Origin: Sphingobacteriales bacterium
GTDB lineage: Bacteria > Bacteroidota > Bacteroidia > AKYH767-A > OLB10
Assembly (NCBI GenBank): GCA_021299095.1
Contig: JAJTFW010000026.1
Span: forward strand, 1-60,662
Length of the DNA stretch: 60,662 nt
Direction of reading: 5' to 3'
The notes beneath the pieces were generated by a model. The model was not told the DNA's origin. It saw nothing but the letters and a program-made list of their open reading frames with translations, and did no database searches. Shown one piece after another: positions 10,748 through 59,823 of this stretch. The position numbers were made by a program, and so were the translations under genes. Each line of letters opens with the position of its first letter. Positions within the stretch are counted from its first letter, which is position 1.

Positions 10748-11787
10748 GCGATTTTTCTAATGAAGTGTACAACATCCTCGCCGGATTGCATGCAGTGCAT
10801 TTCACCGGAGGGCCATCCAGGTGCTTTGCACTCTCCTCCAAGGCGAATCGGGTTGGTGATAATCCTGCATTCATCCCAAATTCCTTCGTTTAGAAACAGG
10901 GAATGTAGTCTTGAGCCACCCTCCACCAAAATGGATGCAATACCGGATTCGTGAAGTGCTGTGGTAATAGCGTGAACCGGCTTACTTCCGCCATTCAATG
11001 AAATCACTTCCGCATTGGGATAACTTGCTTCACTGTCGGCGGTTAACACCAGCGTACGGGACTTGCCATCGAAGAGAGTCAAATGGCTTACTGATGAACA
11101 GCGGCCATTCGGGTCAAAGAGAATTCGTACCGGCTCAGGTCCATTCCAGTGCCTGACATTCAGGGATGGGTTATCGGTAAGTGCCGTTTGTGATCCGATT
11201 AGTATACCGTGTTCTTCACTTCTCCAACTGTGCGTCAGTTCAAGACTATCAGAGCTGCTGATTCGGATTTCCTTTTCAGTGGAACCGGTAAACCCATCTG
11301 CACTTTGAGCCCATTTCAATACCACAAACGGACGTTTCTCGCTGTGGTAGGTGATGAACCGCCGGTTGAGTTGACGCGCTTCCATATCGAGAAGGCCACA
11401 CGTGACATCTATTCCGGCACGCCTTAGCATACGAATCCCCTCGCCGGCTACAGCAGGAAACGGGTCTTCCATGGCTACAACCACCCGTTTTATGCCAGAT
11501 TGAATAATGGCATCGGTGCAGGGGGGCGTTTTTCCCTGGTGACAACATGGTTCCAGGTTCACATACATTGTGCATTCACTCAGCAGTGCCGGATCTTTCA
11601 CCTTCGATAGCGCATCTGCTTCGGCATGTGGCAACCCGAAACCACTGTGATATCCTTCTGCGATAATGCGGTTTTCACGCACAATGACACAACCCACCAT
11701 GGGGTTCGTGCGTGTCCGACCTAAACCAAGCAGTGCTAACTGCAAGCAGCGTTGCATGTAAAAAGGCTGTTCTTCCTGAATTAGCAT
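10744..11787 (-). CDS. ribD: Bifunctional riboflavin biosynthesis deaminase/reductase
   Basis: Catalyses the second and third steps of riboflavin synthesis: deamination of the pyrimidine, then NADPH-dependent reduction of the ribosyl side chain. 347 residues from the ATG at 11787; the open frame can be read from a TTG 9 nt upstream, but ATG is preferred. The deaminase domain has the Zn ligands H54-A-E56 and PCCHQGKTPPC (C81, C90). The reductase domain follows from about residue 147 (PFVVLKWAQSADG) and contains ILVEGGS near the end. First gene of its operon, divergent from prmC. Confidence 0.95.
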   Translation of the reverse strand: MLIQEEQPFYMQRCLQLALLGLGRTRTNPMVGCVIVRENRIIAEGYHSGFGLPHAEADALSKVKDPALLSECTMYVNLEPCCHQGKTPPCTDAIIQSGIKRVVVAMEDPFPAVAGEGIRMLRRAGIDVTCGLLDMEARQLNRRFITYHSEKRPFVVLKWAQSADGFTGSTEKEIRISSSDSLELTHSWRSEEHGILIGSQTALTDNPSLNVRHWNGPEPVRILFDPNGRCSSVSHLTLFDGKSRTLVLTADSEASYPNAEVISLNGGSKPVHAITTALHESGIASILVEGGSRLHSLFLNEGIWDECRIITNPIRLGGECKAPGWPSGEMHCMQSGEDVVHFIRKIA

Positions 11788-11793
11788 GGTTTG

Positions 11794-11801
11794 CAAATGT
11801 A
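11794..11801 (-). promoter_or_regulatory. Promoter -7 element of ribD
   Basis: TACATTTG on the minus strand, with only 6 nt between it and the ribD ATG (11787). Against the SRP RNA ruler (start about 5 nt after the motif) the transcript would begin at or next to the start codon. Confidence 0.6.
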
Positions 11802-11841
11802 ATCGGTCGAAGCATCATCACCATATCCCGGAACAAGCTCG

Positions 11842-11849
11842 TATTTTTG
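11842..11849 (+). promoter_or_regulatory. Promoter -7 element of prmC
   Basis: TATTTTTG followed by just 3 nt before the prmC ATG (11853). This predicts a leaderless or nearly leaderless mRNA. Confidence 0.6.
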
Positions 11850-11852
11850 CCT

Positions 11853-12704
11853 ATGCGTGTAGATCATTTTAGGCGCGATGCCATTCGATTGCTGATGGGT
11901 TCACCACATCACGAAGAAGCGGTAGCCGTAGTCGATTTTCTGTTGTGTAGCAGATTGTCTGTAACGAACGCTGCACTTCGAAGTGATCCGTCCAGGATGT
12001 TGTCAGTGGAGTTTGAACTTTTGTTGGCGACGGACCTGCAAAGACTCAACTCGGGTGAGCCAATGCAGTATGTATTGGGTCATGCCTGGTTCGATGGACT
12101 TCACCTGTGTGTAGACTCTCGGGTGCTTATTCCAAGGCCTGAGACAGAAGAGTTGGTTCAGCATGCTCATGCATCGTTCCCGGATGCACAAATCACCGTC
12201 GACTTATGTTCAGGGAGTGGATGTATTGCACTCGCATGTAAACAACGTATGCCGACATCACAGGTGTTTGCGGTGGAGTTGGATTCCGGAGCATTGGAGG
12301 TCATCCGAACTAATGCCGATCGTACCGGACTTTCAATCCAACAAATTCAGGCTGATGTACTCGGCGAGGATATTGTTGCAATCCTTCCTAAGCAAATCGA
12401 CTTGTTACTCAGTAATCCGCCATACGTGTTGAAAAGCGAATCGCGAAGAATGTCGGCTGTTGTTGTGGATCATGAACCGCATTTGGCATTGTTCGTCCCC
12501 GATTTGGACCCCTTGGTTTTTTACCGAAAAATCGTCGAAATAGCGGCAATATCGGTTGCTCCCGGAGGGCGAATCTGGCTTGAGGTAAACCCCGCTTACG
12601 CAAATGCAGTATCGGATTTATTTCAGGGAACAGTTTTTTCAAGTGCGGCTGTTCACTTGGATTTGAGTGGAAAACAACGGTTTGTTTCCGCTCAGAAATC
12701 CTGA
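11853..12704 (+). CDS. prmC: Peptide chain release factor N5-glutamine methyltransferase
   Basis: Methylates the GGQ glutamine of release factors RF1/RF2 with S-adenosylmethionine. 283 residues from the ATG at 11853; the frame is open upstream to 11712, but that part lies over the ribD start. Features: PrmC N-terminal helical domain (1-90), QYVLGHAWFDG and VLIPRPETEEL before the methyltransferase core, SAM loop DLCSGSGCIAL, and the catalytic NPPY at 188-191. Divergent from ribD, as in many Flavobacteriia. The stop TGA directly abuts the stop of convergent bcp with no bases between. Confidence 0.95.
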   Translation: MRVDHFRRDAIRLLMGSPHHEEAVAVVDFLLCSRLSVTNAALRSDPSRMLSVEFELLLATDLQRLNSGEPMQYVLGHAWFDGLHLCVDSRVLIPRPETEELVQHAHASFPDAQITVDLCSGSGCIALACKQRMPTSQVFAVELDSGALEVIRTNADRTGLSIQQIQADVLGEDIVAILPKQIDLLLSNPPYVLKSESRRMSAVVVDHEPHLALFVPDLDPLVFYRKIVEIAAISVAPGGRIWLEVNPAYANAVSDLFQGTVFSSAAVHLDLSGKQRFVSAQKS

Positions 12705-16678: not shown

Positions 16679-18277
16679 TTAGGCTTCTTCTTTGCTCTTG
16701 CGTTTGAATTCGGATGTGAAATGAAATTCCACATCAGGGTGGTTCTTGATCATTTGATCGAGCATCCACTGCGATTCGGCCAAATAGACCAGATTCCCAT
16801 CTTTATCCGTAGCTACCTGATGTTGCCTGAACTTAACAAGTTCATCCAGTTTTGATTTGTCCTCGGCAGTGATCCAGCAGGCCTTAAAAACATTGAGCAT
16901 ATTGAATTTACAGCTTGCCCCATACTCGTGCTCGAGCCTATACTGGATTACTTCAAACTGCAGTTCACCAACGGTGCCGACAATCTTCCGATTGCCACCA
17001 TGTTGCACAAAAAGTTGAGCGACGCCCTCGTCGGTCAGCTGGTTGATTCCCTTTTCAAGTTGTTTTGTTTTCATCGGGTCGGTATTCACCAACTCTTTAA
17101 AGATCTCGGGTGAGAAGCTGGGGATTCCCTGAAACTGCATCAATTCTCCTTCTGTGAGCGTATCACCGATTTTGAAATTACCGGAATCGTATAGTCCGAT
17201 TACATCTCCGGGAAAGGCCTCGTCAACAATATTCTTGCTCTGCCCCAAAAAGGTTGCGGGGTTGTTGAATCGGATATCCTTGTCCAATCGAACATGGTGG
17301 TAAAATTTACCACGTTCAAATTTTCCACTGCAAACTCTTAGAAAGGCAATTCGGTCACGGTGACGGGGGTCTAGGTTTGCATGTATTTTAAAAACAAAAC
17401 CCGTAAAGGGCTTGTCATCCGGTTTTACTTCCCGTTTATCGGTTGGGCGACTACCCGGCATAGGAGCGATTTCAATGAAGGTGTCAAGCAATTCCCTCAC
17501 TCCGAAATTGTTGATTGCTGATCCGAAAAACACCGGAGCCAGTGAGCCGGCCGCATAACTGTCGCGGTCAAAGGGTTCATATACGCCTTCAATGAGGTCG
17601 ATGTCTTCGCGAAGTTGGGCCGCATAGGGTCCTGCAATTTGATCGATTTGGGGGTCGTTGAGGCTGTTGATGCGAAGACCCTCAGGCTTTTTCGTGCTAC
17701 CCGGAATAAAAGCATACAAGCTTTTGTCGTATAGGTTGTATACGCCTTTGAAGGTCTGTCCTATGCTGATTGGCCAACTCAGAGGCCGAACTCGGATATT
17801 CAGTTTTTGCTCCAGTTCATCAAGCAGATCGAATGGGTACTTTCCCTCACGGTCCATCTTGTTGACAAAAATGATGACCGGAGTGGACCGCATCCTGCAT
17901 ACCTCCATGAGTTTGAAGGTCTGCTCCTCGACACCTTTTTGGCAGTCAACGACCAAAATGACACTGTCAACAGCCGTCAGTGTGCGATAGGTGTCTTCTG
18001 CGAAATCTTTGTGACCCGGTGTGTCCAGCAGTGTAATGAGGGTGTCGTTGTACTCGAAATTCATGACGGAGGTAGCTACCGAGATGCCGCGCTGGCGCTC
18101 GATTTCCATGAAGTCGGACGTGGCGCTTTTCTTGATTTTGTTTGACTTGACGGCTCCTGCAGTCTGAATGGCTCCGCCAAACAAGAGGAACTTCTCGGTC
18201 AAGGTGGTCTTGCCGGCATCGGGGTGACTGATGATCGCGAAGGTTCTGCGTCGCTTTATTTCCTGGTTCGTACTCAT
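16679..18277 (-). CDS. prfC: Peptide chain release factor 3
   Basis: GTPase that recycles RF1/RF2 from the ribosome after termination. 532 residues from [16 protein letters not shown]; the open frame to 18343 runs through the promoter. G motifs: SHPDAGKTT (G1), DTPGHKDF (G3), NKMDREGK (G4). Elongation-factor-like domains follow, ending in a lysine-rich tail. Length and order are normal. Confidence 0.95.
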
Positions 18278-18283
18278 CGCCTG

Positions 18284-18291
18284 CAAAGGTA
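18284..18291 (-). promoter_or_regulatory. Promoter -7 element of prfC
   Basis: TACCTTTG on the minus strand, 6 nt before the prfC ATG at 18277, so the transcript should be leaderless or nearly so. Confidence 0.6.
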
Positions 18292-21920: not shown

Positions 21921-23612
21921 TCAACCCACTACCGGGTTTCTTCGGTTTGAAAACCAGGTTCGTATGTCTTCCAGGTTCAGGGTGTTCAGCACATGTCCTG
22001 GCCCAGCAAAGCCTTTTCTGGCAGCATACACACCAAAGCGCATATCCAATAAGCCTCCTGTATGGTGAGCGTCGGGGTTGATGGAGATTGGAATACAACG
22101 CTCGATGGCCTTTGGAAGATGGCGCCAGTCCAAATCAAGTCGATAGGGATTCGCATTGAGCTCAATGGCGACACCATGTGTTTGACAGGCGTCCAGAATT
22201 CGGTCCACATCAATCGGATACCCTTCCCGTGAAAGTAGAAGTCGGCCTGTAGGGTGGCCAAGTATACTGGTGTAGGGATTGCTGATTGCCTTAATGAGTC
22301 GTTCCGTAGCTCGTTCTTTGTCCATGCGCAATCCTGAATGAACGGAAGCGACAACAAAGTCGAAGGTTGCAAGAATTTCGTCCGGATAATCAAGGCTACC
22401 ATCAGCCAGGATATCCGATTCTATTCCGGAAAAAATATGGAAGGGTGCGAGTTTCTGGTTGAGTCGGGCGATTTCTTCCTGTTGCCTTTTTACCGATTCA
22501 ATGCTCAATCCACCTGCGTACACAGCTGTACGGCTGTGGTCGCAAACCCCGAAGTATTCCAGCCCGAGCTCAATGCATGCCTGGGCCATTTCTTCAAGAG
22601 CGTTTTTTCCATCACTGTATGTAGTATGGTTGTGTAGCGTGCCACGCATATCTTCAATCCGGATAAGACGTTCGGGGAGCGCTTGTTTTTCGAAAAAATC
22701 GAATTCGAAAACGTCTTCTCGCCATTCCGGTTCCATGAATGGCAGTTTAGCGCGCTCGTACAAGTCCTCCTCGGTTTTTACCAATTTGAGGGTTGCTTGG
22801 TCAGTGCCCTGCATGCGCGTCTGGATGTTCATGACATGTCCTTCGTTTCCTGTGTATAGCCAGAGATGATAAGCGAGCTCATCTTGGGGTATTGGAATGA
22901 AGATTAACGGCAGACCATCAATGTGTGCGTTTATCCGACCTTCCTCGTCTGTAGCAAATTCAATCTTGTTCAGGTTCAGGTTCTCGGTTAATGCCGGGAA
23001 CAAATCACGCGCGACCAGTAGCTTGGCCTCCTGCACCGTTTCGCATTTGCGTCTCATTTCACCAGCCAGATGTACTTCTACATGTGGATGAGAAGAGGCC
23101 AATGCACTAAGAAATGAATTCAGGATTCTCTCTGCCTTGGCATAGTGAAAATGTCCTTCGTGCATGAGATTGTATGCCACCGACTGGCGGATGGTTTCCT
23201 GTGATTTACTGCCAAATCCCTTTAACTCGATGAGGCGATTTTCCTCGCAGGCATACAGCAATTCTCCAGGTGATTCGATTCCCAGTTCCCGCCAAAGGGT
23301 TTTCACCTTCTTAGGCCCCAATCCTTTGATGTTGAGTATTCGTGCTACACCCGGCGGTGTTTTCCTTCGCAGGTCTTCAAGTTCAGAAAACGTGCCTATG
23401 CTATTCATCTCAGCAATCTTCTGGGCAATGCTTTTTCCGATTCCTTCGGTGCCTTCCAATTCTTCGATTGTCATTTGTTCCAGTGGTTCGCTCAGTCGTT
23501 CAATGCGCTGGGCGGCACGGAGCAGCGATTTCGTTTTGAAAGGATTTTCATCATGGAGATCCATGAGTTCTGCTGCTTCCTCAAGGAGCAAGGCGATTTC
23601 CGAATTCCGCAT
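21921..23612 (-). CDS. polX: PolX-family protein with PHP domain; polymerase active site degenerate
   Basis: 563 residues from MRNSEIALLLEE (23612). Domains in order: helix-hairpin-helix (about 45-140, with EGIGKSIAQKIAE and IKGLGPKKV), a PolX nucleotidyltransferase-like domain (about 155-315), and a PHP phosphoesterase domain (about 330-560). PHP metal motifs look complete: LHNHTTYSDG, VCDHS, ESDIL, ASVHSG, GHPTGRLL and NPDAHHTGG. In the polymerase domain GEMRR (184-188) is followed by QEAKL where PolX enzymes have the G-D-x-D catalytic pair, so synthesis is unlikely. It may act as a nuclease only. ATG at 23612 lies 4 nt after a -7-like element. Confidence 0.85.
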   Translation of the reverse strand: MRNSEIALLLEEAAELMDLHDENPFKTKSLLRAAQRIERLSEPLEQMTIEELEGTEGIGKSIAQKIAEMNSIGTFSELEDLRRKTPPGVARILNIKGLGPKKVKTLWRELGIESPGELLYACEENRLIELKGFGSKSQETIRQSVAYNLMHEGHFHYAKAERILNSFLSALASSHPHVEVHLAGEMRRKCETVQEAKLLVARDLFPALTENLNLNKIEFATDEEGRINAHIDGLPLIFIPIPQDELAYHLWLYTGNEGHVMNIQTRMQGTDQATLKLVKTEEDLYERAKLPFMEPEWREDVFEFDFFEKQALPERLIRIEDMRGTLHNHTTYSDGKNALEEMAQACIELGLEYFGVCDHSRTAVYAGGLSIESVKRQQEEIARLNQKLAPFHIFSGIESDILADGSLDYPDEILATFDFVVASVHSGLRMDKERATERLIKAISNPYTSILGHPTGRLLLSREGYPIDVDRILDACQTHGVAIELNANPYRLDLDWRHLPKAIERCIPISINPDAHHTGGLLDMRFGVYAARKGFAGPGHVLNTLNLEDIRTWFSNRRNPVVG

Positions 23613-23616
23613 GCAA

Positions 23617-23624
23617 CGAAGATA
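23617..23624 (-). promoter_or_regulatory. Probable promoter -7 element of polX
   Basis: TATCTTCG on the minus strand (one mismatch to TAnnTTTG), 4 nt before the ATG at 23612. Confidence 0.4.
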
Positions 23625-31847: not shown

Positions 31848-31876
31848 TTTGGATTCGTCGGACAGAGGTAAATTTG
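31848..31876 (+). promoter_or_regulatory. Promoter of the small TPR gene
   Basis: TTTG (31848-31851), 17 nt, then TAAATTTG (31869-31876), which ends 4 nt before the ATG at 31881. A complete Bacteroidota sigma-A promoter placed so that the transcript would start at the initiation codon. Confidence 0.7.
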
Positions 31877-31880
31877 CAAG

Positions 31881-32204
31881 ATGCCAGATCAAAACAGGAT
31901 TTTAGCCCTCGAGGCCATGTTGGCGGAAGATCCCTCAGATCCATTTTGCCGCTACGCGTTGGCCTTGGAATATGCCGGATTGGAATCGGGTTCCCAAAGG
32001 AGTATTGATCTTTTGCAAGGCTTGGTGGCTGATACCCCCGTTTATCTTCCTGCTTATTATCAGCTCGGTAAATTGCTTGGGGATGCCAACCGAAAATCCG
32101 AGGCCATGCTGGTCATTCAGGCGGGTATACAGTTGGCCCGTTCAACGGGTGAAAAACACGCACTGGCTGAGTTGAACTTTCTTGCCGAGGACTACGCTGA
32201 TTGA
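31881..32204 (+). CDS. Small TPR-like protein
   Basis: 107 residues, all helical, with three TPR-like helix pairs (RYALALEYAGLESG, AYYQLGKLLGDANRKSEAM). No signal peptide or membrane segment, so cytoplasmic. Small TPR proteins of this sort are recurrent neighbours of central-metabolism genes in Bacteroidota; the function is unknown. Upstream of pdhB on the same strand, but pdhB has its own promoter. Confidence 0.7.
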   Translation: MPDQNRILALEAMLAEDPSDPFCRYALALEYAGLESGSQRSIDLLQGLVADTPVYLPAYYQLGKLLGDANRKSEAMLVIQAGIQLARSTGEKHALAELNFLAEDYAD

Positions 32205-38372: not shown

Positions 38373-38380
38373 TACCTTTG
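38373..38380 (+). promoter_or_regulatory. Promoter -7 element of mutS2
   Basis: TACCTTTG, ending 6 nt before the mutS2 ATG at 38387. Confidence 0.6.
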
Positions 38381-38386
38381 CGCAGA

Positions 38387-40495
38387 ATGGAAATTTTCCC
38401 CGGTCAATCCTTGCTTCTCGATGAATTTGGCAAAATCCGCCAGTTGGCAGTGGCTGAATGTTGTGGTCGCCCGGCCGCAGAAGTGATCGAGCAGGAGATG
38501 CCCGGTTCCGATTTTGTGGATGTGCTCGGTCGGTTAGAACAAACCGATGAAATGCGAAAGCTGATTGCAGATAGTCAGCCGTTCCCATCCGATGCCTATC
38601 CCGACCTTAGGGATTGCCTCAAGTTGCTCCGTGTTCGCAATGCCATGCTCTCCGTCGGTCAGGTTTTGGAGATCCGGCGAATCCTCGAGCGAACAGCGGT
38701 TATTCATGCATTTTTTAAAACACGTGCCGAGCTGTACCCGCTTTTGGCGAGTGTTTTATCCGGAAGCCGATATGATGCAGATCTGTTGTCCTCTATCGAT
38801 GTGGTTATGGATGAGGTTGGTGTTGTTCGAAGTTCCGCTTCATCCGAATTGGCATCGATAAGGAAGCAGCTTGGGCGAAAACGCGCTGAGGTGGAGCAGA
38901 TTTATCAGTCAGCACTTTCACGGTATAGGAAGAGCGGATGGCTCAGCGATGCCCAGGAGAGTTGGCGTAACGGAAGAAGGGTCGTGTCCATTCAGGCGGA
39001 ACAAAAGCGGACTGCAAAAGGGATCATTCACGATATTTCTGCGACTGGTAAAACCTGTTTCATCGAGCCGGAAGAGGCCATTCCATACAATAACCTGATT
39101 CAGTCGTTGGAAGAGGAGGAACGGCAAGAAATCCTGCGGATTTTACGTGCTCTGAGCGACCAGCTGCGCAACCACCACGAGGCGATTTCTCTGTACTTCG
39201 ATCAGAACGTTCGCTTCGATCGCATTGCAGCAAAAGCAAGGCTTGCACTCAAAATGAGAGCCTCATTGCCATTTGTTGAGCCGATTCCGATGGTTCATCT
39301 CATCGATGCCAGTCACCCCTTGTTGTTTTTAAAAAACATCCAGTCCGGAAAGAAAACCGTTCCATTCAGTCTTGATCTTGGTGGTGACAGCCGCATTCTG
39401 GTAATCAGTGGACCGAATGCCGGCGGAAAAACGGTGTGTCTGAAAACAGTCGGTTTGCTGCAGTTGATGTTGCAAGCTGGTTATCTCGTTACGGCCGATG
39501 GCAATTCTCGGTTTGGTCTGTTCAGTCACCTCTTGGTCGATATCGGCGATTCTCAATCTCTGGAGTTTGAATTGAGCACCTATAGTTCACGGCTTCGGCA
39601 CATGAAGGAGTTTGTTTCACGATCAGGTGAAAGGACCTTGTTCCTGATTGACGAATTCGGTACCGGAACCGATCCTGCCCTGGGTGGTGCACTGGCCGAG
39701 GCGATTCTCGAAGAACTGAATTACAAGCGTTCGTTCGGAATCATCACTACCCATTACATGAATCTGAAGGTGCTGGCCGATCGTACGAAAGGAATCATCA
39801 ATGGATCCATGGCCTTCGATGCCCGCAGGCTCGAACCCATGTACAAACTTGAGGTCGGCAAGCCTGGAAGCTCCTACACTTTTGTTGTAGCCGAACGAAG
39901 TGGTTTGCCACATTCAGTAATCAACAAAGCCCGGAAAAAAGTCAAGAAAAACACCTTGTTGCTGGAGGAGTTGTTGAACAAGCTTGAGCGCGAAAAATCG
40001 GAGGTAGCACGATTGCTGGAGGTAAATCGGAATCAGGAGAAAAGACTTCAGGAGTTGGTAGGTCGCTACGAGCGGAATGTGGTAAAACAAGAGCAACGTG
40101 AAGTTCAGGATACAGAACGCGTCCGCCAGAAAGAACTTAGGCTGTCAAGACAATTGGAGGATCGCTTTCAGCGGTTCGTCAAGGATTGGAAGGAGTCGCG
40201 AGACAAAAAAGCCGTATTGCACAAGTACACCCGTAAGTTGGATGAGCGGAAAAATGAACTCAGCGCAAAAGAGCAGATCAAACAGGAAGAGCTTGTTTCA
40301 TTCAACCGGTTGAATATCCGTAAAGGAGTTTCTGTTCGTTTGAAAAACGGTAAAGTGTATGGCCAGGTCGACTCTCGCAGAGGCGATCGTGTGATTGTGT
40401 TGTTCGGAAATGTCAAAACCACCGCTGACATCAAGGATCTGGTGGTGCAGGAAGAGAAAGCAGCTCCAGAAAAGCAGCGCAAATCACAGGCCTGA
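38387..40495 (+). CDS. mutS2: MutS2-family ATPase lacking the Smr domain
   Basis: MutS-like ATPase connected in other bacteria with suppression of recombination or with splitting of collided ribosomes. 702 residues from MEIFPGQ (38387). Core/lever domains lead to the ATPase with Walker A SGPNAGGKTV (about 340-350), Walker B LFLIDEFGTGTD and TTHYMNLK. A long charged coiled coil (about 510-640) and a small beta domain (KGVSVRLKNGKVYGQV) follow. The C-terminal Smr nuclease domain of canonical MutS2 is absent; the protein stops after a short K/Q tail. Shortened forms are my recollection for Bacteroidota but were not checked. Confidence 0.9.
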   Translation: MEIFPGQSLLLDEFGKIRQLAVAECCGRPAAEVIEQEMPGSDFVDVLGRLEQTDEMRKLIADSQPFPSDAYPDLRDCLKLLRVRNAMLSVGQVLEIRRILERTAVIHAFFKTRAELYPLLASVLSGSRYDADLLSSIDVVMDEVGVVRSSASSELASIRKQLGRKRAEVEQIYQSALSRYRKSGWLSDAQESWRNGRRVVSIQAEQKRTAKGIIHDISATGKTCFIEPEEAIPYNNLIQSLEEEERQEILRILRALSDQLRNHHEAISLYFDQNVRFDRIAAKARLALKMRASLPFVEPIPMVHLIDASHPLLFLKNIQSGKKTVPFSLDLGGDSRILVISGPNAGGKTVCLKTVGLLQLMLQAGYLVTADGNSRFGLFSHLLVDIGDSQSLEFELSTYSSRLRHMKEFVSRSGERTLFLIDEFGTGTDPALGGALAEAILEELNYKRSFGIITTHYMNLKVLADRTKGIINGSMAFDARRLEPMYKLEVGKPGSSYTFVVAERSGLPHSVINKARKKVKKNTLLLEELLNKLEREKSEVARLLEVNRNQEKRLQELVGRYERNVVKQEQREVQDTERVRQKELRLSRQLEDRFQRFVKDWKESRDKKAVLHKYTRKLDERKNELSAKEQIKQEELVSFNRLNIRKGVSVRLKNGKVYGQVDSRRGDRVIVLFGNVKTTADIKDLVVQEEKAAPEKQRKSQA

Positions 40496-41932: not shown

Positions 41933-41940
41933 TACTTTTG
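41933..41940 (+). promoter_or_regulatory. Promoter of the 156-residue unknown gene
   Basis: TACTTTTG, 4 nt before the ATG at 41945, with TTG (41909-41911) 21 nt upstream. Confidence 0.65.
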
Positions 41941-41944
41941 TTGC

Positions 41945-42415
41945 ATGGCAGAAGAAAAGCAGTTTCGGGATTCGGTTGAAATTACTGCGACCAAGGAGTT
42001 GAAGCTGTTTGTACGCTCGATGGCTGCTACTTATCAGTTTGTATTCCGTCAGGATCAGGTAGACTTTGTCATCCGGGCCATGATGATCGATTTGGTAAAC
42101 AAAGAAGGTGTAGCAGCTTTGGCGAGTCGGTTCGGGGCCGCTTTTCCGGGCGAAAAACTTGAGCTGAGCAAAGAAGAAGTCTATCTCTTTTATGCCATGC
42201 TTGAACTGGTATGTAGAAGTTTCCTGACCGAGGCGGGCGATGCATACAAGGAAATGGCTATGCGGGTAAATCAGGTTAGCACCGAACGGTTTAATTCGGT
42301 GCGCAGCATGGAGTTGACCATTGCTCAAACCTTAATCGGAAAGTTTTCGGATGATTTCCGTGATGATCCGGAATTCGATGAGCTCTCTGAACGTATTGCG
42401 TTACTCGATACCTGA
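41945..42415 (+). CDS. Conserved-looking cytoplasmic protein of unknown function
   Basis: 156 residues from MAEEKQFRDSVEIT; the ATG at 41903 lies upstream of the promoter and is rejected. It is mostly helical, without signal peptide or membrane segment, and I recognise no family. The composition is ordinary. Its 3' end overlaps convergent gmhB by 15 bp. Confidence 0.6.
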   Translation: MAEEKQFRDSVEITATKELKLFVRSMAATYQFVFRQDQVDFVIRAMMIDLVNKEGVAALASRFGAAFPGEKLELSKEEVYLFYAMLELVCRSFLTEAGDAYKEMAMRVNQVSTERFNSVRSMELTIAQTLIGKFSDDFRDDPEFDELSERIALLDT

Positions 42416-46361: not shown

Positions 46362-46369
46362 CAAAGATA
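46362..46369 (-). promoter_or_regulatory. Promoter -7 element of SRP RNA
   Basis: TATCTTTG on the minus strand; the predicted RNA 5' end (46357) is 5 nt after its last base. A TTG (complement of 46386-46388) lies 16 nt upstream. It is an internal ruler for where transcripts start relative to TAnnTTTG. Confidence 0.7.
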
Positions 46370-56120: not shown

Positions 56121-57218
56121 TTAAAGTGCTCTGTCGATGAATCCACCGCCGATGACATCATCACCATCGTAGAAAACTGCGCTCTGTCCCGGTGCAATAG
56201 CCTTGACCGGAGCATGAAAGCGGACTAGCATTCGGTCTCCCGATTGTTCGAGGCTACTCCATGCACCCGGGTCTTTGTATCGGATTTTTGTAATGGCTTC
56301 TGTCGGCTCGATGAGTTTGGCGTATTTAATGAGGTTGAAGTTGCGCACCTGCATTTCCTGCTGTTGCAATTCCTCTATCGGACCCAACACAACGGTATTG
56401 GTTTCGGGATCGATTCGTGTGACATAAAGCGCCGAACCGACAGCGACTTCAAGTCCTTTCCGCTGCCCGATGGTGTAAAAAGGATACCCGCGGTGTTTAC
56501 CCAGTTTATTTCCGGAACTATCAATGAAGTGCCCTCCATCCAGTTTTTTGTCAAGGTCAGGTATCCGGTGTTTAAGAAACGCCCTGTAGTCATTTTCAGG
56601 GATAAAGCAGATTTCGTAGCTCTCGCTTTTTTCGGCAAGTTCGTGTAAGCCCTTGTCCCTGGCCATTTGTCGGATAGCCGATTTTTCGAAGCCTCCAATC
56701 GGAAAGAGTGTGCGGGAGAGACATTCCTGACTGACTCCCCAAAGTACGTATGACTGATCCTTAGTGGGGTCCAATCCTTTGGAGATTACGTAGCGTCCAT
56801 TTTCCTCCCGGACTTTGGCGTAGTGGCCGGTTGCAATGAAATCGCATTTCAGCATGTCCGCACGCTTCAGCAAGGCCTCCCATTTGATGTGCGTGTTGCA
56901 CATGACACAGGGGTTGGGCGTTCTGCCAGCCAGGTATTCATCAACAAAGTTGCCAATGACGGATTCACCAAACTCCTCACGGATATCCAGAATGTAGTGT
57001 GGGAATCCGAAACGCACGGCAATGGAACGGGCATCATTGATCGAGTCCAGGCTGCAGCATCCGGTTTCCTTTCCTTGTGTTCCGGAGCTGACATAATCCC
57101 AGGTTTTCATCGTGATTCCGACTACCTCATAGCCCTGTTCGTGTAAAAGAATTGCCGCAACGGAACTATCAATTCCGCCACTCATGGCCATCAATACGCG
57201 TCCTCGGGAGTTATTCAT
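56121..57218 (-). CDS. mnmA: tRNA-specific 2-thiouridylase
   Basis: Makes 2-thiouridine at the wobble position 34 of tRNAs for Glu, Gln and Lys. 365 residues from MNNSRGRV (57218); the frame opens to 57248 through the promoter. PP-loop SGGIDSS (13-19), first catalytic Cys in NPCVMCN, GHYAK, KDQSYVLW, second catalytic Cys in YEICFI, and the C-terminal beta barrel (GQSAVFYDGD). Length normal. Confidence 0.95.
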   Translation of the reverse strand: MNNSRGRVLMAMSGGIDSSVAAILLHEQGYEVVGITMKTWDYVSSGTQGKETGCCSLDSINDARSIAVRFGFPHYILDIREEFGESVIGNFVDEYLAGRTPNPCVMCNTHIKWEALLKRADMLKCDFIATGHYAKVREENGRYVISKGLDPTKDQSYVLWGVSQECLSRTLFPIGGFEKSAIRQMARDKGLHELAEKSESYEICFIPENDYRAFLKHRIPDLDKKLDGGHFIDSSGNKLGKHRGYPFYTIGQRKGLEVAVGSALYVTRIDPETNTVVLGPIEELQQQEMQVRNFNLIKYAKLIEPTEAITKIRYKDPGAWSSLEQSGDRMLVRFHAPVKAIAPGQSAVFYDGDDVIGGGFIDRAL

Positions 57219-57223
57219 TCTTA

Positions 57224-57231
57224 CAAAGATA
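57224..57231 (-). promoter_or_regulatory. Promoter -7 element of mnmA
   Basis: TATCTTTG on the minus strand with 5 nt before the mnmA ATG at 57218, predicting a leaderless or nearly leaderless mRNA. Confidence 0.6.
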
Positions 57232-59045: not shown

Positions 59046-59812
59046 GGCGAAAAGGGATGGATGCGGAGTGCAGGGAGATAGGGATAGTGAATTGCTTCCA
59101 AAAACAAGCCATCAGGTGCTACCGATTCACCGGCTACACTGCGGTCTTTTGCAGCGAGAATTTCAGCAAACGCGACAACGGACAAGGTTTCCTTGCCTAC
59201 GTTTAACAGGGTGCCTGTTAATGCGCGAACCATTCCACGCAGAAAGCGGTTTGCGCCAACATCGAATTTGATGAAACCTTCATGTTCCGACCAATGGCAG
59301 GTGCTAACGGTACACCGGTTGTGTCCGGTTTGTGTTCCGGTTTTACTGAAGCTGCCGAAGTCCTGCTCGCCCATGCAAAGTGCAGCGGCTTCATTCATAC
59401 GTTCGATGTTCAAATCGCCGGAAAAAGGAAGCCCCAGTCCTTGCAGAAAAGGTCCGGGTTTGGTGAATAGGTAATAGCCATAGGAGCGATGCCTTGCATC
59501 AAACCGTGCATGTGCACCATCTGAAACAGGGTGTAGGTTTCGAATTCGGATGTCAGTCGGAAGGATAGCGTTTAGTTGAAAAACCAGTTTTTGGATATCC
59601 TGCAACGGATCCTGAAGGTCGAAATGTGCGTAATACAGCGAGGCGTGAACCCCTGTGTCGGTACGGCCACAACCGGTCAATTCGCTTGGATGCTTGGTCA
59701 GAATGAGCAGGGCTTCCTGAATTGTGGCCTGAACGGTGCGGGCATTGGGTTGGATTTGCCAACCGTGGTATTCGGTTCCCCGGTAAGCAAGCTCAAGGAA
59801 ATATCGGGGCAT
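59042..59812 (-). CDS. truA: tRNA pseudouridine(38-40) synthase
   Basis: Converts U38-U40 in the anticodon arm to pseudouridine. 256 residues from MPRYFLELAYRGTEYHGWQ (59812). Catalytic Asp D52 in GCGRTDTGVHA, then VRALTGTLLNVG near the end of the core. The longer open frame to 59881 runs through the promoter. Coupled to the ABC exporter gene. Confidence 0.95.
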   Translation of the reverse strand: MPRYFLELAYRGTEYHGWQIQPNARTVQATIQEALLILTKHPSELTGCGRTDTGVHASLYYAHFDLQDPLQDIQKLVFQLNAILPTDIRIRNLHPVSDGAHARFDARHRSYGYYLFTKPGPFLQGLGLPFSGDLNIERMNEAAALCMGEQDFGSFSKTGTQTGHNRCTVSTCHWSEHEGFIKFDVGANRFLRGMVRALTGTLLNVGKETLSVVAFAEILAAKDRSVAGESVAPDGLFLEAIHYPYLPALRIHPFSP

Positions 59813-59815
59813 GCA

Positions 59816-59823
59816 CAAAGATA
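59816..59823 (-). promoter_or_regulatory. Promoter of truA-ABC operon
   Basis: TATCTTTG on the minus strand, 3 nt before the truA ATG (59812), with TTG (complement of 59842-59844) 18 nt upstream. Confidence 0.7.

Follow-up and report, generated by a model that had tools for sequence, protein, structure and literature searches.

Promoter elements placed at the start codon predict many leaderless mRNAs in a lineage of Bacteroidia

Leaderless mRNAs are generally regarded as uncommon in the Bacteroidetes. The 60,662-nt contig of a Sphingobacteriales bacterium analysed here (the window) nevertheless carries a set of genes in which the promoter motif TAnnTTTG ends only a few nucleotides before the start codon, and this raises the question of whether such genes are transcribed without a leader and, if so, whether they form a functional group. 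The window is one contig (C8) of a 93-contig, 2.51-Mb genome that is 96% complete. We read 1.68 Mb of this host genome, about two thirds, in separate stretches. A script based on codon usage called 1198 genes in them, and for these we took the distance d from TAnnTTTG to the called start codon, with expected counts from permuted motifs. Genes with the element 3–7 nt before the start were classed as leaderless and genes with the element 13–30 nt before an ATG as leadered. Start codons were assigned by our own simple gene caller, which penalises GTG and TTG, and the true start of a few of these genes may be at a later codon, in which case they would be leadered.

The elements in the window are collected in the table. 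A preliminary description of this DNA had given spacings of 3–6 nt for eight genes with an exact match, and 4 nt for a ninth with one mismatch; all nine spacings were reproduced, and NCBIfam agrees with its names prmC, ribD, prfC, mutS2, mnmA and truA. The genes starting at 31881 and 41945 matched no NCBIfam profile at the E-values used. The SRP RNA serves as a ruler, its first helix starting 5 nt past its −7 element, which fits a transcription start 4–5 nt after the element. The window holds no more motifs than chance predicts (30 against 31.7 expected); the non-random part is their placement before start codons. The ribD and prmC genes are a divergent pair (window 11787–11853) with 65 bp between their ATGs and both starts predicted leaderless; a second such pair lies on contig C47 of the same genome (97332–97409). 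With 65–76 bp between the start codons of the two pairs, the whole intergenic region would amount to two back-to-back promoters.

Table. Positions of the −7 elements in the window and their distance to the start codon.
Feature	Element	Position	Strand	Start codon	Identification
ribD	TACATTTG	11794–11801	−	6 nt before ATG at 11787	RibD by TIGR00326
prmC	TATTTTTG	11842–11849	+	3 nt before ATG at 11853	PrmC by TIGR03534
prfC	TACCTTTG	18284–18291	−	6 nt before ATG at 18277	NCBIfam name
'polX' (weaker element, one mismatch)	TATCTTCG	23617–23624	−	4 nt before ATG at 23612	name from the preliminary description
107-aa ORF	TAAATTTG	31869–31876	+	4 nt before ATG at 31881	
mutS2	TACCTTTG	38373–38380	+	6 nt before ATG at 38387	TIGR01069
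156-aa ORF	TACTTTTG	41933–41940	+	4 nt before ATG at 41945	
SRP RNA (ruler)	TATCTTTG	46362–46369	−		Bacteroidales small SRP RNA, RF04183
mnmA	TATCTTTG	57224–57231	−	5 nt before ATG at 57218	NCBIfam name
truA	TATCTTTG	59816–59823	−	3 nt before ATG at 59812	TIGR00071

The same arrangement recurs across the genome. In the 1.68 Mb, TAnnTTTG lies at d = 3–7 before 81 genes, against 1.8 expected with permuted motifs, and the peak at d = 4 comprises 39 genes, against 0.24 expected. The distinct peak at 3–6 nt for which the preliminary description had proposed a scan therefore exists, at 3–7 nt, and is far commoner than chance. It is followed by a trough at d = 8–12 (12 genes, compared with 31 at d = 13–17; p = 0.005) and by a second hump at about d = 14–28. 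Neither permuted nor reversed motifs gave a spacing peak, and in the whole genome the raw d = 4 pattern occurs 66 times, compared with 29 for the reversed pattern. Start codons of the leaderless class, as called with the penalty on GTG and TTG, are 78 ATG, 4 GTG and no TTG. The product of one gene of this class, on contig C56 (25916–28609; L061:5919–8609), is 897 aa long and contains two D-Ala-D-Ala ligase-like regions.

We considered whether the peak could be a product of sampling or chance. A bias towards contigs bearing hits was ruled out by contigs C1–C49, which were taken irrespective of hits and in which 58 of about 149 near promoters (39%) belong to the leaderless class. Chance was ruled out by the permuted and reversed motifs, by the other classes of the phylum and by motif copies inside genes. 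Among 89 genomes sampled from the phylum, the excess at 4–5 nt is found mainly in the class Bacteroidia; it also occurs in a few genomes elsewhere and is mostly absent from other classes.

The −7/−33 promoters of the Bacteroidetes are reportedly recognized by the RpoD-like factor sigma-ABfr (Bayley, 2000). In F. johnsoniae, 4–5 nt separate the −7 element from the start of transcription, and its two n positions hardly ever hold G (PMC6847099); the published consensus is TAHHTTTG. The motifs found here match this consensus in avoiding G at the second n, which is present in 2 of 82 leaderless and 3 of 90 leadered (13–30 nt) elements but in 43% of gene-internal copies (p about 3e-13 for each class). 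An A directly before the element is likewise rare, at 3/82 and 11/90 compared with 42% of internal copies. Because these hallmarks are common to both spacing classes and missing from internal copies, we conclude that both classes represent one promoter type. A −33 TTG is not evident here, and likewise not in F. johnsoniae; the leadered class has only a weak excess of T some 22 nt before the element, and in the leaderless class this excess is not clear. Within genes, on both strands, TAnnTTTG is about three times rarer than after synonymous-codon shuffling (164 copies compared with about 500, in the 1.2 Mb of coding sequence of the 1198 genes, window contig included), which suggests selection against spurious promoters and a −7 element that is nearly sufficient for initiation.

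These properties bear on the alternative that the motif near the ATG is a translational signal or an effect of sequence composition, with no promoter involved. Closeness to the start codon is the one observation in favour of such a reading. It would not account for promoter hallmarks in both spacing classes that are missing from internal copies, for the lack of a peak with permuted and reversed motifs, for an excess mostly limited to the class that has such promoters, or for avoidance of the motif within genes on both strands, and we regard it as very improbable.

The arrangement is instead very probably explained by ordinary promoters of the primary sigma factor placed at the start codon, giving mRNAs that are leaderless or nearly so. 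With the 4–5 nt between element and start known from F. johnsoniae, mRNAs of genes with d = 3–7 are predicted to begin at the AUG or 1–3 nt before it. At a spacing of 4, transcription from a promoter of the sigma-ABfr type would start on the A of the AUG, and at spacings of 5–7 it would start at most 1–3 nt upstream. Leadered genes would use the same promoter type, with only the distance to the start codon differing, and the under-representation of leaders of about 3–8 nt would leave two classes of mRNA, one leaderless and one with a short, A-rich leader. The leaderless mRNAs would presumably be translated via the 5′-terminal AUG, as elsewhere. The prediction of leaderless transcripts in the preliminary description is well supported by the genome-wide peak at 3–7 nt, the promoter hallmarks and the conservation of spacing described below.

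The predicted leaderless share is high in this lineage. Among host promoters no more than 60 nt from the start codon it reaches about 38%, roughly a third, and it is 44% in pooled loci from near relatives, which overlap in gene content. Comparison samples were small (at most 200 kb, or pooled loci) and gave 6% for a low-GC genome from another Bacteroidia family (p = 9e-5 compared with the host) and 7% for Chitinophagaceae-like loci. Maps of transcription start sites have found 5.5% leaderless mRNAs in Flavobacterium psychrophilum (PMC9723704), 3.7% with leaders under 10 nt in Bacteroides thetaiotaomicron (PMC7366714) and 13% with leaders of at most 10 nt in F. johnsoniae (PMC6847099). The agreement of the 6% and 7% shares with the mapped 5.5% and 3.7% supports the spacing method.

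Conservation of spacing differs between genes. Three genera of the family gave 12 readable regions upstream of rsmG, one of them from a G002 gene that is divided between two contigs and represented by its start-side part. In all 12 the element lies exactly 4 nt before the ATG, and this spacing stays while the spacer and the centre of the motif vary; readable rsmG regions from other genera were without the 4-nt arrangement. In the five genus g5 loci (L235–L238 and L240), the leaderless rsmG promoter is immediately preceded by a hairpin that resembles a terminator and carries a T run (cccctttgttttt), which puts hairpin, promoter and start codon within a few tens of bases. The nearest named relatives in the MnmA comparison are uncultured Bacteroidetes metagenome-assembled genomes with 76–78% identity, which places the host in a Bacteroidia lineage without cultured members. 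The mnmA spacing is 5 in the host and 4 in all four of the closest named relatives; it is about 17 nt in Sphingobacterium, and many others have no element near the start. For prfC the spacing is 6 nt in the host compared with 17 in all three same-genus relatives, making this gene leaderless in the host genome only; the difference looks like a deletion of about 11 nt, and loss of the leader is probably recent. Orthologues of tilS, truA, ribE, coaX, panD and rlmN were also found. With the rsmG and mnmA spacings kept and that of prfC changed, some genes appear to hold on to leaderless status, and in others it appears labile.

Why are some genes leaderless and others not? Leadered genes show stronger codon adaptation than leaderless genes (p = 8e-4) or the rest (p = 2e-4), and leaderless genes are at the background level, which suggests expression level as the simpler explanation. 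On this account, which we consider somewhat more probable than its opposite, leaders would matter for highly expressed genes and average genes in a compact genome could drop them, leaderless starts being gained and lost through small indels; the median intergenic gap is indeed shorter for the leaderless class (79 compared with 115), and the apparent loss of about 11 nt upstream of prfC would be a change of this kind. The constant rsmG spacing argues for selection on a spacing once established, without contradicting the account. Expression level and compactness are compatible with promoter placement and compete only with the idea of a regulon. In leadered genes the leaders are A-rich and G-poor, and an A directly follows the ATG in 46 of 90 leadered compared with 28 of 82 leaderless genes (p = 0.03).

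The preliminary description had raised the possibility that translation maintenance genes are co-regulated in this way, four of its nine genes acting in translation or tRNA modification. As a regulon, the leaderless class would hold genes for translation maintenance that respond jointly to changes in initiation factors or 70S levels. The proportion of four in nine does not generalise. Among the genes named via NCBIfam (70 leaderless and 47 leadered), translation genes account for 9/70 and 4/47 (p = 0.56), and for 6/65 and 4/41 once the window genes are set aside, so that a general enrichment of translation genes was ruled out. What stood of the proposed functional bias is a modest excess of rRNA- and tRNA-modification enzymes. 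With E. coli K-12 genes as an outside list, chosen after some members were known to be leaderless, an initial reciprocal-best-hit version gave 7/17 leaderless RNA-modification genes compared with 3/54 (p = 0.001), and the extended list gave 8/22 compared with 8/76 other conserved genes (p = 0.008), or, once the window contig is left out, 6/19 compared with 8/74 (p = 0.035). The RNA-modification orthologues are also more often leaderless than the rest of the sampled genome (p = 0.003).

This small, post hoc excess is weak evidence that RNA-modification enzymes are over-represented in the leaderless class, and together with the kept rsmG and mnmA spacings it speaks for a regulon. Against one, the excess is not significant among first-gene-like genes (6/17 compared with 8/50, p = 0.16), other translation genes on the extended list are leaderless in 2 of 13 cases, most annotated members of the class are unrelated (PanD, RibE, CoaX, MurI, Cmk, ThiL, KdsA, LptB and a CopA-like protein), translation genes overall are unenriched outside the window, prfC is leaderless in the host alone, and some members were already known when the gene set was drawn up. 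The 80 mnmA loci had no power on this point (0/11 compared with 0/51). We therefore think a regulon quite unlikely. A broader proposal, that leaderless transcription is a major mode in this Bacteroidia clade and preferentially includes RNA-modification enzymes, whose synthesis would track the state of ribosomes and initiation factors, also seems unlikely. Under promoter placement, the leaderless class would consist of many ordinary single housekeeping genes whose codon usage is average; rRNA- and tRNA-modification genes would be modestly over-represented at most, and special regulation would not be needed to explain it.

A simple scan of −7 spacing thus reveals a lineage with a predicted leaderless start for about one in three promoter-proximal genes, and a clear gap in spacing separates these from genes with short leaders. 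This yields a testable prediction for how ribosomes of bacteria free of Shine–Dalgarno sequences start translation, and, as the element plus 4 nt would mark the start, the spacing could improve the annotation of start codons.

Leaderless genes in other phyla, which average 19% in Actinobacteria and 39% in Deinococcus-Thermus (Zheng 2011, PMC3160421), likewise have a promoter that keeps a short, constant distance to the start codon, with a −10 box of the Pribnow type where the host has a −7 element. Of 37 Bacteroidetes/Chlorobi genomes in the same survey, only 1 yielded leaderless genes; the search covered Pribnow-like signals only, a limit stated by its authors (PMC3160421), and a survey of this design is unable to see leaderless genes with −7 elements. 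Promoter type and leaderless product are shared with F. psychrophilum, F. johnsoniae and B. thetaiotaomicron, in which they were mapped on RNA and not predicted as here; the host differs in its far higher share of such promoters, and the leaderless examples in B. thetaiotaomicron (transposases, sensor kinases and transporters) differ in function from those of the host. The closest counterpart is the sigma-ABfr type of −7/−33 promoter, with the same TAnnTTTG, a second n without G, a −33 element that is at most weak and 4–5 nt to the transcription start, measured there and predicted here, whereas the host often places the element such that the ATG coincides with the predicted start of transcription.
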